A DNA stretch of 64,000 bases from a bacterium (GTDB taxonomy: Bacteria; Bdellovibrionota; UBA1018): NCBI GenBank assembly GCA_019751945.1, contig JAIEMT010000018.1, positions 1 to 64,000 on the forward strand, read 5' to 3'. Both the position numbers and the translations under genes were made by a program. Shown here piece by piece: positions 12,584 through 44,947 of the stretch; position 1 is the first letter of the stretch; the number at the start of each line of letters is the position of its first letter. Under the pieces are notes generated by a model. The model saw nothing but the letters and a program-made list of their open reading frames with translations, was not told where the DNA came from and searched no databases.

Positions 12584-12660
12584 GATCCCGTAGCTCAGTT
12601 GGATAGAGCAGGTGCCTTCTAAGCATCAGGTCGGGAGTTCGAATCTCTCCGGGATCGCCA
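12584..12660 (+). tRNA. tRNA-Arg (anticodon TCT)
   Basis: A complete 77-nt cloverleaf can be drawn. The acceptor GATCCCG (12584-12590) pairs with CGGGATC (12650-12656). The D stem is GCTC/GAGC. The anticodon stem GGTGC/GCATC holds the loop CTTCTAA with anticodon TCT (reads AGA). The T stem is GGGAG/CTCTC with loop TTCGAAT. Discriminator G and an encoded CCA (12658-12660) complete it. A -10-like TATAAA lies at 12569-12574 with no good -35. A long hairpin element begins eight bases after the CCA. Confidence 0.96.
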
Positions 12661-12663
12661 TCT

Positions 12664-12796
12664 TCCCTCTGCTCCCTCCTCCTTTATTTCTCTCCCAACC
12701 AGCCCGGGCAAGCATCCTTGCTTCTATCGCCTCCCTTCGTGGTCGGCTCTTTTAGGTCTAGTTGGGAGAGAAATAAAGGAGGAGGGAGCAGAAGGA
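12664..12796. repeat. long hairpin element E1 (31-bp perfect arms, conserved tip)
   Basis: Perfect 31-bp inverted arms lie at 12669-12699 and 12761-12791; with one mismatch the stem extends to 12664/12796. The 61-nt interior matches the tips of the two elements near 42.4 and 42.6 kb. Shared blocks are AGCC-GGG at the left, AGCATCC-TGCT in the middle and CTCTTTTAGG-CT at the right. Its first mini-hairpin is AAGCA/TGCTT (12710-12714 with 12719-12723), where the other copies have GAGCA/TGCTC: a compensated base pair. The second mini-hairpin is weaker than in the others. The arms share no obvious sequence with those of the other copies. E1 fills the gap between tRNA-Arg and the convergent AlkZ-related gene, where it could also terminate transcription. 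Confidence 0.85.
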
Positions 12797-41935: not shown

Positions 41936-42288
41936 GCGCGGCTCTCTGCTTTCTTGAATGTAAATCCACAGGTGTCGACTTCAGAATCAATTGCGTCGAA
42001 CGGATAGTTACGGCAGTTGGCCGGGCGGAGGTCTCCGTAGATCCGGCAGTAGGGCAGGTTCTGTCCATCGCGGCCTAAGAAGGGGCATTTGTAAATGAGC
42101 TCGCAGCAAAGTCCGCAGCGATGGCAATCGCCTTGGCGGGTGTCTTGGATGGCTTGTTGGATATAGTCTTGGCGGAAGGTACCCAAATAGAAACGGCGCC
42201 ACTTTCTTAGGAATTGCCCCAAGAAAGTCCGTGCACCAATATTTCTGTCGTACCAGGCTTTGAGTGCTGCCATCCCCTGTCTATACAT
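41932..42288 (-). CDS. YkgJ-type cysteine cluster protein
   Basis: 118-aa protein with the family pattern CHRCGLCC...CPFL...CRIY...RPANCRNYP...CGF, up to eight cysteines for a probable zinc or iron-sulphur site. The biochemical function of the family is not established. Candidate starts are ATG 42288 and ATG 42273. The latter begins MAALKAWYDRN, the very segment that recurs inverted at 42475-42513 beyond element E2. The upstream region is entirely occupied by element E2, whose arm ends 11 bp before the ATG, so any promoter must lie in the hairpin or come from upstream readthrough. Confidence 0.85.
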   Translation of the reverse strand: MYRQGMAALKAWYDRNIGARTFLGQFLRKWRRFYLGTFRQDYIQQAIQDTRQGDCHRCGLCCELIYKCPFLGRDGQNLPYCRIYGDLRPANCRNYPFDAIDSEVDTCGFTFKKAESRA

Positions 42289-42298
42289 TATCTGAGAA

Positions 42299-42451
42299 TG
42301 TCCTTCTAGGGGACCTTTCTCCCTATTTTTAGTTCTAAAAAACGCGAGCCGGGGTGAGCATCCTGCTCCTTGGTCCCCGCATCCTGCGGGGCCCTTTTAC
42401 GGCTCGGTTTTTTAGAACTAAAAATAGGGAGAAAGGTCCCCTAGAAGGACA
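42299..42451. repeat. long hairpin element E2 (45-bp perfect arms, conserved tip)
   Basis: Identical arms of 45 bp lie at 42299-42343 and 42407-42451. Inside them a 6-bp stem CGAGCC/GGCTCG (42345-42350, 42401-42406) encloses two mini-hairpins: GAGCA-TCC-TGCTC (42356-42368) and CCCCGCA-TCC-TGCGGGG (42375-42391). CCCTTTTAC follows them. Only one base (G42344) is unpaired along the joined stem. The 62-nt tip is nearly the same as that of E3, read in the opposite direction, and related to E1. Outside the perfect arms, symmetry continues in decayed form: 42242-42264 on minus equals 42484-42506 on plus over 23 bases. Confidence 0.9.
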
Positions 42452-42458
42452 CCCTCCG

Positions 42459-42517
42459 TGTCTAGGAAAGGGGGACGGCAGTGCTCAAAGCCTGGTACGA
42501 CAGAAACATCGGCGACG
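42459..42517 (+). pseudogene. inverted fragment of the cysteine-cluster gene 5' end
   Basis: Reading on plus, codons from 42475 give T A V L K A W Y D R N I G, against M A A L K A W Y D R N I G of the real gene on minus from 42273. A block of 23 bases is identical. Within the 13 aligned codons three changes are synonymous (AAT/AAC, ATT/ATC, GGT/GGC) and two are not; the ATG has become ACG. The upstream bases (TGTATAG/TGTCTAG) also align. It is a dead 5' fragment lying as a mirror image across element E2. Confidence 0.8.
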
Positions 42518-42537
42518 GAGGGGGCGTAGTCTGCCGT

Positions 42538-42574
42538 GCGGGGGATGCTGTTCATCTCGTTTGAAAATGGGTGA
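42538..42574 (+). pseudogene. inverted fragment of the glnN 3' end
   Basis: On plus, from 42539, the codons read R G M L F I S F E N G and stop, against R E M L F I S stop at the end of glnN on minus (42736-42719). ATGCTGTT-AT-TCGT--GAAA and GT-AGCGCCC are shared and run directly into the left arm of element E3. The differences include TTT/TTC and ATA/ATC, both synonymous. It is a mirror copy of the glnN tail across E3. Together with the other fragment it makes up the whole 120-bp space between E2 and E3. Confidence 0.7.
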
Positions 42575-42711
42575 GCGCCCTAGAGCAGGGAAGAGTTCTT
42601 CTCTCTGGGCGAGACATAAAAGGGCCCCGCAGGATGCGGGGACCAAGGAGCAGGGATGCTCACCCTGGCTCGCTCAGAGAGAAGAACTCTTCCCTGCTCT
42701 AGGGCGCTTAC
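42571..42711. repeat. long hairpin element E3 (33-bp perfect arms, inverted copy of the E2 tip)
   Basis: Perfect arms of 33 bp lie at 42575-42607 and 42675-42707. With G-T pairs the stem extends to 42571/42711 outside and a further GCGAG/CTCGC inside. The tip is the reverse complement of the E2 tip with about four changes. Its mini-hairpins are CCCCGCA-GGA-TGCGGGG (42625-42641) and GAGCA-GGGA-TGCTC (42648-42661). The arm sequence is unrelated to the E1 or E2 arms. The right arm ends eight bases after the glnN stop codon. Confidence 0.9.
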
Positions 42712-42718
42712 TTATTTC

Positions 42719-44947
42719 TTACGATATAAACAGCATTTCGCGGTACTTGGGCAGCGGCCAGTAGTCGTCCGACACGATGGCTTCTAGCTCATCGCAAGTG
42801 CCTCGGAGCTCGGCCATTGCCGTTGCGACTTCGGCTGCGAAGGCTTTCGCTTTTGCCTCTTCGCTGCTCATGCTTTCTGCCTTGTGATAGGCCGACTCTA
42901 AAGCTGTGCGCTTGGTTTGCAAGGTACCGATCAGCGTGGAGATCTTATTCAAGATTTCTTGCTGAGGAGCGGTTGCGCCCGCGCTCTTTGCTGCGCTCAC
43001 CGAAGTAGCCAGCATACCGTGGTAGGCGTAGCAGGCCGGCAGAACGATCGTGTCGACCGTCGATCGAAGGGTTTCCACTTCGATGATCATGTTCTTCAAG
43101 TAGCGTTCGAGGCGGACGTGGAATCGGGAAGCTGATTCCGCTTCGGTGAACACACCTAGGCGGGTCAGCATTTCTTGCGACGTTTTGTCGACAATCTTAG
43201 CCAACGCTTCTGGAGTTTTGCGGAGATTCGGAAGGCCGCGTTTATCGGCTTCCTTCACCCACTCTTCCGAGTAGTTGTTGCCTTCGAATCGGATGGCCTT
43301 CGTTTCTTGAACCGCTTCCTTCACGGTTTCGAAGATTGCGGCGTCTAAGCCACCCGCTGTCTTCATCTTCTTCTTCAAGGTTTCAGTGATCATCGTGAAA
43401 CCATCGGCCACTGCCGCGTTTACCAAGGTGATTGGGAAAGCTGTCGAAGCTGAAGATCCCACCGCGCGGAATTCGAACTTGTTGCCGGTGAAGGCGAACG
43501 GAGAAGTTCTGTTTCGGTCAGTGTTATCGCGCATGACTTCGGGCAATTTGCTGATGCCCAGGTTAATCACGGCACGTTCGACGTTCTTGTCAGCGCCCGA
43601 ACCCTTCTCGATTTCATTCAAGATGCGGCTGAGTAAGTCGCCCAAGAATACCGAGATGATGGCCGGGGGTGCCTCGTTCGCGCCCAAGCGATGATCGTTT
43701 CCGGAAGAGGCGATGCCCGCTCTCAAAAGGCCGGCGTGCTTGTGCACACCTTTCAGGACTGCCGAGAGAACCAGCAAGAAGCGCAAGTTTTGTTGCGGAG
43801 TCTTACCGGGTTCGAGCAGGTTGTCGCCATCGATGTCCGAACCGCTGGCTGCGATCATCATGGACCAGTTGTTGTGCTTGCCGCTTCCGTTCACACCCGC
43901 GAAGGGCTTTTCATGCAAGAGAGCCATGAAGTTATGTCGGAGTGAAACCTTCTTGATCACTTCCATCACCAGTTGATTGTGATCAGTCGCGATATTGGCT
44001 TCTTCAAAGATCGGTGCCGTTTCGAATTGGCTGGGAGCCACTTCGTTGTGTCGGGTTTTGACCGGCACGCCGAGTTTGTAAAGTTCGTATTCCATCTCCA
44101 CCATGAAGGCTTGAACACGAGCCGGGATGCTGCCGAAGTAATGGTCTTCGAGCTGCTGACCCTTCGGAGGCTGACCGCCCACGAGGGTACGACCGGTCAT
44201 GACCAGGTCGGGGCGCAGGTGGTAGAAAGCGCGATCGATCAGAAAGTATTCCTGCTCGACGCCCAGAGTGGGGAGGATTCGCTTCACCTTCGTGTCGCCA
44301 ATCATGTGCAAGAGTTCGCACGCTTTGTTGGAAAGCACTTCCATGCTTCTCAGCAAAGCGGTTTTCTCATCGAGAGAATCGCCGTGGTAGCTGATGAAGA
44401 CCGAGGGAATGCAGAGAGTTTTGCTGCTCGCAGATTCCATGATGAAGACCGGACTCGACGGATCCCACGCCGTGTAGCCGCGGGCTTCGAAGGTCGTTCT
44501 CATTCCACCGGACGGGAAGCTCGAAGCGTCCGGTTCGGATTGAATCAGCTGTGCGCCAGAAAACTTTTCAATGACTTGGTTGTTGTCGTCGAAGGAAACA
44601 AACGCGTCGTGCTTCTCGGCCGTCGTTCCGGTTTGGGGTTGGAACCAGTGACAGAAGTGGGTGACGCCTCTTTCCAGCGCCCACTCCTTAATGGCTAGTG
44701 CCACGGTGTTGGCAATATCGTTGTCGAGCTTGTTACCCGTCTCAATGGTTTGACGGATCTTGTTAAAGACTTCCTTGGGAAGCTTCTCTCTCATCTTATT
44801 GAGATCGAAGGTGTTCATCCCATAAAACTGTGAAATTCTTAATCTTTTACCCGAATCGTCTCGGGGGGGATCAAATTTTCGGGGGGTTCGAGAGGTGATC
44901 TCGCGGATAGCATCAAAACGGGACTTCGCGCCAGTTCCTACGCTCAT
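42719..44947 (-). CDS. glnN: glutamine synthetase type III
   Basis: ATP-dependent synthesis of glutamine from glutamate and ammonia; the dodecameric GSIII form typical of Bacteroidota, cyanobacteria and some Bdellovibrio relatives. Motifs: LPTLGVEQEYFLID with the GS beta-strand Glu residues near 225, KTRHNEVAPSQFE, the ATP-binding EKPFAGVNGSGKHNNWS near 355, and RNRTSPFAFTGNKFEFRAVGSS near 485. Length 742 aa is within the GSIII range (about 700-730) and slightly long. AAGGAG is eight bases before the ATG. The end of the gene is duplicated in inverted form across element E3. A 16-bp palindrome lies about 80 bp upstream of the start. Confidence 0.95.
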   Translation of the reverse strand: MSVGTGAKSRFDAIREITSRTPRKFDPPRDDSGKRLRISQFYGMNTFDLNKMREKLPKEVFNKIRQTIETGNKLDNDIANTVALAIKEWALERGVTHFCHWFQPQTGTTAEKHDAFVSFDDNNQVIEKFSGAQLIQSEPDASSFPSGGMRTTFEARGYTAWDPSSPVFIMESASSKTLCIPSVFISYHGDSLDEKTALLRSMEVLSNKACELLHMIGDTKVKRILPTLGVEQEYFLIDRAFYHLRPDLVMTGRTLVGGQPPKGQQLEDHYFGSIPARVQAFMVEMEYELYKLGVPVKTRHNEVAPSQFETAPIFEEANIATDHNQLVMEVIKKVSLRHNFMALLHEKPFAGVNGSGKHNNWSMMIAASGSDIDGDNLLEPGKTPQQNLRFLLVLSAVLKGVHKHAGLLRAGIASSGNDHRLGANEAPPAIISVFLGDLLSRILNEIEKGSGADKNVERAVINLGISKLPEVMRDNTDRNRTSPFAFTGNKFEFRAVGSSASTAFPITLVNAAVADGFTMITETLKKKMKTAGGLDAAIFETVKEAVQETKAIRFEGNNYSEEWVKEADKRGLPNLRKTPEALAKIVDKTSQEMLTRLGVFTEAESASRFHVRLERYLKNMIIEVETLRSTVDTIVLPACYAYHGMLATSVSAAKSAGATAPQQEILNKISTLIGTLQTKRTALESAYHKAESMSSEEAKAKAFAAEVATAMAELRGTCDELEAIVSDDYWPLPKYREMLFIS

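Follow-up and report, generated by a model that had tools for sequence, protein, structure and literature searches.

The window analysed here is a stretch of 64,000 nucleotides (contig JAIEMT010000018.1, assembly GCA_019751945.1) from a bacterium of the Bdellovibrionota. Two hairpin-forming elements, E3 and E2, lie between the 3' end of glnN and the start of a ykgJ-like cysteine-cluster gene, and a third element of the same family, E1, lies elsewhere in the window. The features are as follows.

12584 to 12660, plus strand: tRNA-Arg(tct), the native gene upstream of E1
12664 to 12796, plus strand: E1, with arms at 12664-12705 and 12755-12796 (93% complementary) and a divergent core
42228 to 42298, minus strand: A, the native flank to the left of E2, with the start of the ykgJ-like gene
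42299 to 42343, plus strand: 5' arm of E2, perfect, 45 nt
42344 to 42406, plus strand: core of E2 in canonical orientation, with hairpin 1 GAGCATCCTGCTC, hairpin 2 CCCCGCATCCTGCGGGG and then CCCTTTTA
42407 to 42451, plus strand: 3' arm of E2, the reverse complement of its 5' arm
42452 to 42519, plus strand: A', a mirror copy of A, with 23 identical bases at 42484-42506 and a scrambled stretch before them
about 42545 to 42574, plus strand: B', a mirror copy of the glnN tail, weak taken alone
42575 to 42609, minus strand: arm of E3 on the A'B' side (canonical 3' arm)
42610 to 42673, minus strand: core of E3, canonical orientation on this strand
42674 to 42707, minus strand: arm of E3 on the glnN side (canonical 5' arm)
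42708 to 42736, minus strand: B, the native 3' end of glnN (open reading frame 42719-44947, minus strand)

The order at the locus is A-E2-A'B'-E3-B. The two elements are different from each other and convergent, and each mirrors its own native flank. Mirrored flanks on both sides of E2 and E3 had been reported in a preliminary description, together with the perfect arms of E2 and the 23 bases common to A and A' (TTTCTGTCGTACCAGGCTTTGAG); all of this was confirmed, and the mirroring proved to be genome-wide, in a family of 33 copies. The inverted copy of the glnN tail to the left of E3 was also found, although its span is about 42545-42574 rather than 42538-42574. About 25 bases of the spacer belong to neither A' nor B'. 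The outer mirror of E2 was scored against cross-locus controls, in which the 5' flank of one copy was compared with the mirrored 3' flank of another. It scored 35.5, a value reached by 0.09% of the controls (mean 8.9, 99th percentile 14.7). The outer mirror of E3 is weak by itself (14.0, reached by 1.8% of the controls), but it is convincing because it adjoins a perfect arm and because all six pairs of elements in this genome share the layout. At their full extent the arms of E3 (42565-42616 and 42666-42717) are 90% complementary, with an inner perfect run of about 33 nt. The real start of the ykgJ-like gene is probably the ATG near 42273; alignments with ykgJ homologues begin at about residue 7.

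Successive searches of the genome (G000) yielded 17, 23 and, with a covariance model, 33 copies of the family. Each consists of a core of about 60 nt with two hairpins, surrounded by inverted arms with a median length of 43 bp. The canonical order in the core is stem, hairpin 1 (GAGCATCCNTGCTC), linker, hairpin 2 (as CCCCGCATCCTGCGGGG), CTTTTA and stem. Hairpin 1 has the loop TCC almost without exception, and this loop is also frequent in hairpin 2. The helices of the core covary (0.831, compared with 0.198 after shuffling). A second covariance model, run on 58 genomes of the class, found 30 copies in G013, 17 in G030, 5 in G028 and one or two each in G022, G025, G005, G037 and G038. The class (predatory-type bacteria, Bdellovibrionota/Oligoflexia) thus has at least eight further genomes with relatives of the family, and the distribution is patchy. 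Weaker matches to the first model in G021, G002 and G014 have two ATCC-loop hairpins each. The named relatives that were traced by way of the ykgJ-like gene are mostly metagenome-assembled genomes (MAGs) of Oligoflexia, Bacteriovoracaceae and Bdellovibrionales. The same element was observed at the same position on equally long contigs (5035) of two genera (G013:C64 and G022:C158; loci L066 and L036). This suggests a shared contaminant contig in one MAG, from which the G022 match may stem.

The family is real and reproducible, and it is undescribed in the literature that we searched, where searches on bacterial repeats of this kind, on template switching at terminators and on palindromes at tRNA ends gave no match. 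A known RNA family was rejected, since only tRNAs exceeded the gathering score in Rfam 15 and the miRNA matches were sub-threshold matches to the stem. An origin from phages or plasmids was likewise rejected after searches of both gave no match to the family. The exact core pattern was found in no other GTDB genome or viral contig. Misassembly had been named as a possible refutation of the mirrored layout. We rejected an assembly or amplification artefact as unlikely because the 33 copies lie on many contigs, relatives occur in other assemblies and several genomes, some mirrors are decayed, and empty sites exist elsewhere.

Within each copy of G000 the arms are near-perfect, whereas their sequences differ from copy to copy. 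The inner arms of these copies contain 1379 Watson-Crick pairs, 3 G·T pairs, 14 other mismatches and 6 indels. Related copies were compared with each other six times; 43 differences affected both arms and none a single arm, although one comparison, contributing 15 of the 43, may include an indel shift. Simultaneous change of both arms is the mark of quasipalindrome products, and the near absence of G·T pairs favours DNA copying over RNA selection. The closest copies, E1 and C4+, have cores that are 96% identical but only 16 nt of arm in common, while their mirrors extend over 36 and 39 nt. Since the mirrors outrun the common arm, the perfect arm consists of local sequence in its outer half. 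The preliminary description held that the arms had stayed perfect since one old event. Judged from these comparisons, they look instead as if they were continually homogenised in place. In G013, most copies share arms of about 60 nt that are perfect within each copy and end near a fairly fixed outer boundary, as in an ordinary palindromic repeat, which speaks against snap-back copying of the kind proposed below.

The copies have a clear polarity, and 25 of the 33 are sense-oriented behind a gene or tRNA. Those behind protein genes mostly lie 15-49 nt past the stop codon. Thirteen copies adjoin tRNAs, whose 3' ends are mirrored in most cases. The tRNA lies 5' of the core and in the sense orientation at 12 of these 13 loci and at all six tRNA loci of the relatives (18/19 together), and the CCA end is located 18-20 nt before the start of the model at nine of the 13. 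The exception is tRNA-Pro cgg (L014, G000:C19), the only tRNA copy with an inverted core; the flip would be fitting for a loop inversion by template switching. At E2 and C26+ the native flank is the start of a gene; therefore, the copying direction follows the core and not transcription. Part of the polarity could come from selection, as opposite copying would overwrite the end of the tRNA or gene. On the reverse strand of the cores (for example at 42344-42406) the hairpin loops CANGGATG and CAGGATG resemble CsrA-binding loops, and the genome encodes csrA; the strand with these GGA loops is antisense to the adjoining gene.

Hairpin 2 followed by CTTTTA resembles an intrinsic terminator, as does hairpin 2 with CCCTTTTATG at E3, and the element may serve as a gene 3' end or terminator. 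A structured RNA or terminator could have been kept by compensatory selection on RNA pairing. We consider this highly improbable. It would agree with the sense placement behind genes and with the tRNA-Ser locus of G013 and the tRNA-Lys locus of G030, where the same upstream gene recurs, with an element, in another genus or family; this sharing fits both long residence and repeated insertion. However, G-U pairs are almost lacking and one-arm changes are absent, the mirrors reach into tRNA and coding sequence, and the U-run lies inside the hairpin, so that a terminated RNA would be without the 3' arm.

Beyond the perfect arms, nearly every copy has on its 3' side a mirror image of its native 5' flank. 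The outer parts had been described as mutated around inner arms that stayed perfect. The inner arms are indeed perfect, but the outer parts are not simply older or decayed: a scrambled stretch of 12-30 nt with near-random identity is followed by an outer block that is often 85-100% identical. A local template for the scrambled stretches was looked for, and none was found. At L026 and L032, the tRNA copy in the 3' mirrored flank is broken at a similar place by a related hairpin insert of about 33 nt (AAGGTACCGAACGCTCCGCGTTCGCGCACTGCT and TAAGGCACGAACCGCTCCGCGGTTCATCACTGT), which is possibly another small repeat. The outer mirrored flank exceeds the 99% level of the cross-locus controls in nine of the 33 copies, namely eight of the 12 paired copies and one of the 21 single ones (Fisher p = 0.0003). 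It extends into the gene for mostly only 8-15 nt in single copies and for 50-110 nt in pairs.

Six close pairs were found (C9, which is E2/E3, C26, C69, C4, C28 and C10), and all of them are convergent. About 0.1 pairs within 300 bp would be expected by chance, and the orientation has p = 0.0002. All six have the order A-E-A'B'-E-B, and A' and B' fill most of the spacer with few bases unassigned. In at least four of the six (C26, C69, C4 and C10), the two members come from different core subfamilies. For these, the splitting of one element at a cruciform was rejected.

Two independent fold-back insertions give this same order. The main rival for the pairs is a one-step repair of a two-ended break, in which a break occurred between A and B, each 3' end received an E hairpin, folded back and copied its flank, and the extended ends were joined in a single event. 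The excess of convergent pairs, their filled spacers and the concentration of long mirrors in them all agree with such a repair. However, two donors would usually have been needed at once, because the members are of different subfamilies, and convergence is also expected from sense elements behind convergent genes (C69 and C10). In several relatives, glnN and the ykgJ-like gene are separated by a parA-like gene that is missing here (window 42289-42718), its closest homologue in this genome being only 37% identical; the site may therefore be a rearrangement junction. Against a one-step repair, two relatives have glnN next to the ykgJ-like gene and no element there. Overall, we regard a one-step repair as unlikely. 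The preliminary description had offered two readings of the origin. Of these, fold-back copying at each element has support from many loci, and hairpin-capped ends that were copied and joined are compatible with the six pairs.

The empty-site comparison proposed in the same description could be made. In MAG_CO165, the stop codon of glnN overlaps the start of the ykgJ-like gene, and in G024 the two are separated by a gap of about 130 nt; neither junction has an inverted repeat. Therefore, A' and B' do not belong to the ancestral state. The conserved serS–tRNA-Ser(tga) site, where the name serS was inferred from context only, is empty in about 16 relatives, again with no mirror. The empty sites at both loci indicate that the elements bring the mirror, although they are too diverged to place the switch points. 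Palindromes near the tRNA end that mirror part of the tRNA are present at this site in G000, G013, G001, G023 and G014, those of G001 and G014 showing ATCC-loop hairpins. In G006, the hairpin at the site is plain and terminator-like, and it comes with a mirrored tRNA end that has decayed. This suggests that fold-back copying is a general property of strong hairpins behind tRNA genes and that the E family is an especially successful one.

Direct copies of the tRNA 3' end (17-21 nt, GAATC...CCA, from the T-loop to CCA) were also seen, 109-351 nt downstream of the tRNA, at the serS–tRNA-Ser loci of G001, G006, G003 and G023 (L197, L199, L206 and L212) and at L186 of G030. In G030, and apparently in G023, a second element, of the same kind as the first, comes after the direct copy.

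Our preferred explanation, to which we assign a probability of about 0.58, is snap-back template switching at the core, which copies the 5' arm and flank to the 3' side repeatedly in place, E2 and E3 being two members of one non-coding family of small hairpin elements. We infer both the polymerase mechanism and its repetition. The conserved core folds into two mini-hairpins on a stem. When replication passes it, the growing 3' end would snap back, read first the 5' arm and next the native 5' flank as its template, and later return to the normal template. On the 3' side, arm and flank would thereby appear as a reverse complement. Repetition would keep the inner 32-50 bp perfect while the arms take on local sequence, and it would leave longer, partly changed mirror blocks further out. 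New copies would arise once the core has arrived, together with the inner arm, at a further site, in most cases behind a tRNA or protein gene. At the glnN/ykgJ-like site, the convergent elements would each have copied their own native flank as a mirror image, which yields the order A-E2-A'B'-E3-B. Hairpins are known to be both made and repaired by template switching (PMC8794818), and such switching at the core would explain the perfect arms, the two-arm changes, the scarcity of G·T pairs, the captured local sequence and the polarity. The scrambled stretch between inner arm and outer block argues against a single simple snap-back event, and the difference in mirror length between pairs and single copies also counts against the mechanism. 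Snap-back copying would account for the arms and flanks but not for the dispersal of the core.

In a further rival explanation, a host or mobile enzyme might attach a single-stranded hairpin to a 3' end that lies behind a tRNA or gene, after which self-primed synthesis would copy the flank in a rolling-hairpin-like manner and leave an inverted target duplication. The precise start just after CCA, the fixed polarity, the two-hairpin tip, the patchy distribution and the direct tRNA-end copies in several relatives are in line with such an insertion. However, no enzyme was identified, and the length of the common arm varies between copies in G000. Reverse transcription is disfavoured, because RVT_1 genes were not found in G013 (only about 76% complete) or G030. 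RAYT transposases do not discriminate, since Y1_Tnp is present in most relatives with or without elements. Enzyme-driven insertion therefore appears improbable to us. It is doubtful that the family represents a new class of mobile DNA that completes its insertion by self-priming. In such a class, the hairpin would be single-stranded when it is linked to a 3' DNA end behind a gene; after folding back at the two-hairpin core, it would copy the target flank as an inverted rather than a direct duplication and keep rewriting its own arms. Parvovirus-type terminal hairpins also carry a pair of small hairpins at the end of a long stem, prime their own synthesis and leave inverted copies at junctions. 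The E elements are chromosomal, and the resemblance is one of shape only.

Among known systems, template-switch or quasipalindrome correction mutations (PMC8794818; PMC7202029; PMC8604942) share with the E elements the reverse-complement copying between arms, the perfect arms, the two-arm changes and the occasional loop inversion. The known cases are single hairpins, whereas here a repeated core nucleates the process at dozens of loci and the mirror reaches tRNAs and coding regions. REP/BIME and other bacterial palindromic repeats (PMC3733652) and MITEs (PMC9769881) are, like the E elements, intergenic, non-coding, multi-copy and hairpin-forming, and lie near gene ends. However, their palindrome or terminal repeats are the same from copy to copy, in contrast to a conserved centre with locus-specific arms and mirrored target flanks. 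The GTAG or CGTC tag of REP/BIME (RAYT) is not conserved in the E alignments A2 and A4. Terminal inverted repeats common to the copies, as in MITEs, were not found in G000, where the outer arm is local, while the arms of G013 are shared. No direct target-site duplication was noticed by eye; the flank repeats seen were inverted. The hairpin elements (RHE) of sponge mitochondria (PMC2800124) are also mobile hairpins in intergenic DNA, but the abstract of that study does not report mirrored flanks.

The chemistry is probably that of known template switching. What is new is the repeated conserved core, with its locus-specific arms, and the mirroring of gene ends. Template switching at hairpins is usually inferred mutation by mutation, and the occurrence of the E core at dozens of loci constitutes a replicated natural experiment, with arms that are perfect but locus-specific, mirrored gene ends and six two-sided pairs. 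These loci are relevant to the birth and upkeep of long perfect palindromes, on the origin of the hairpins behind tRNA genes, and on whether a repeat can spread without conserved ends.
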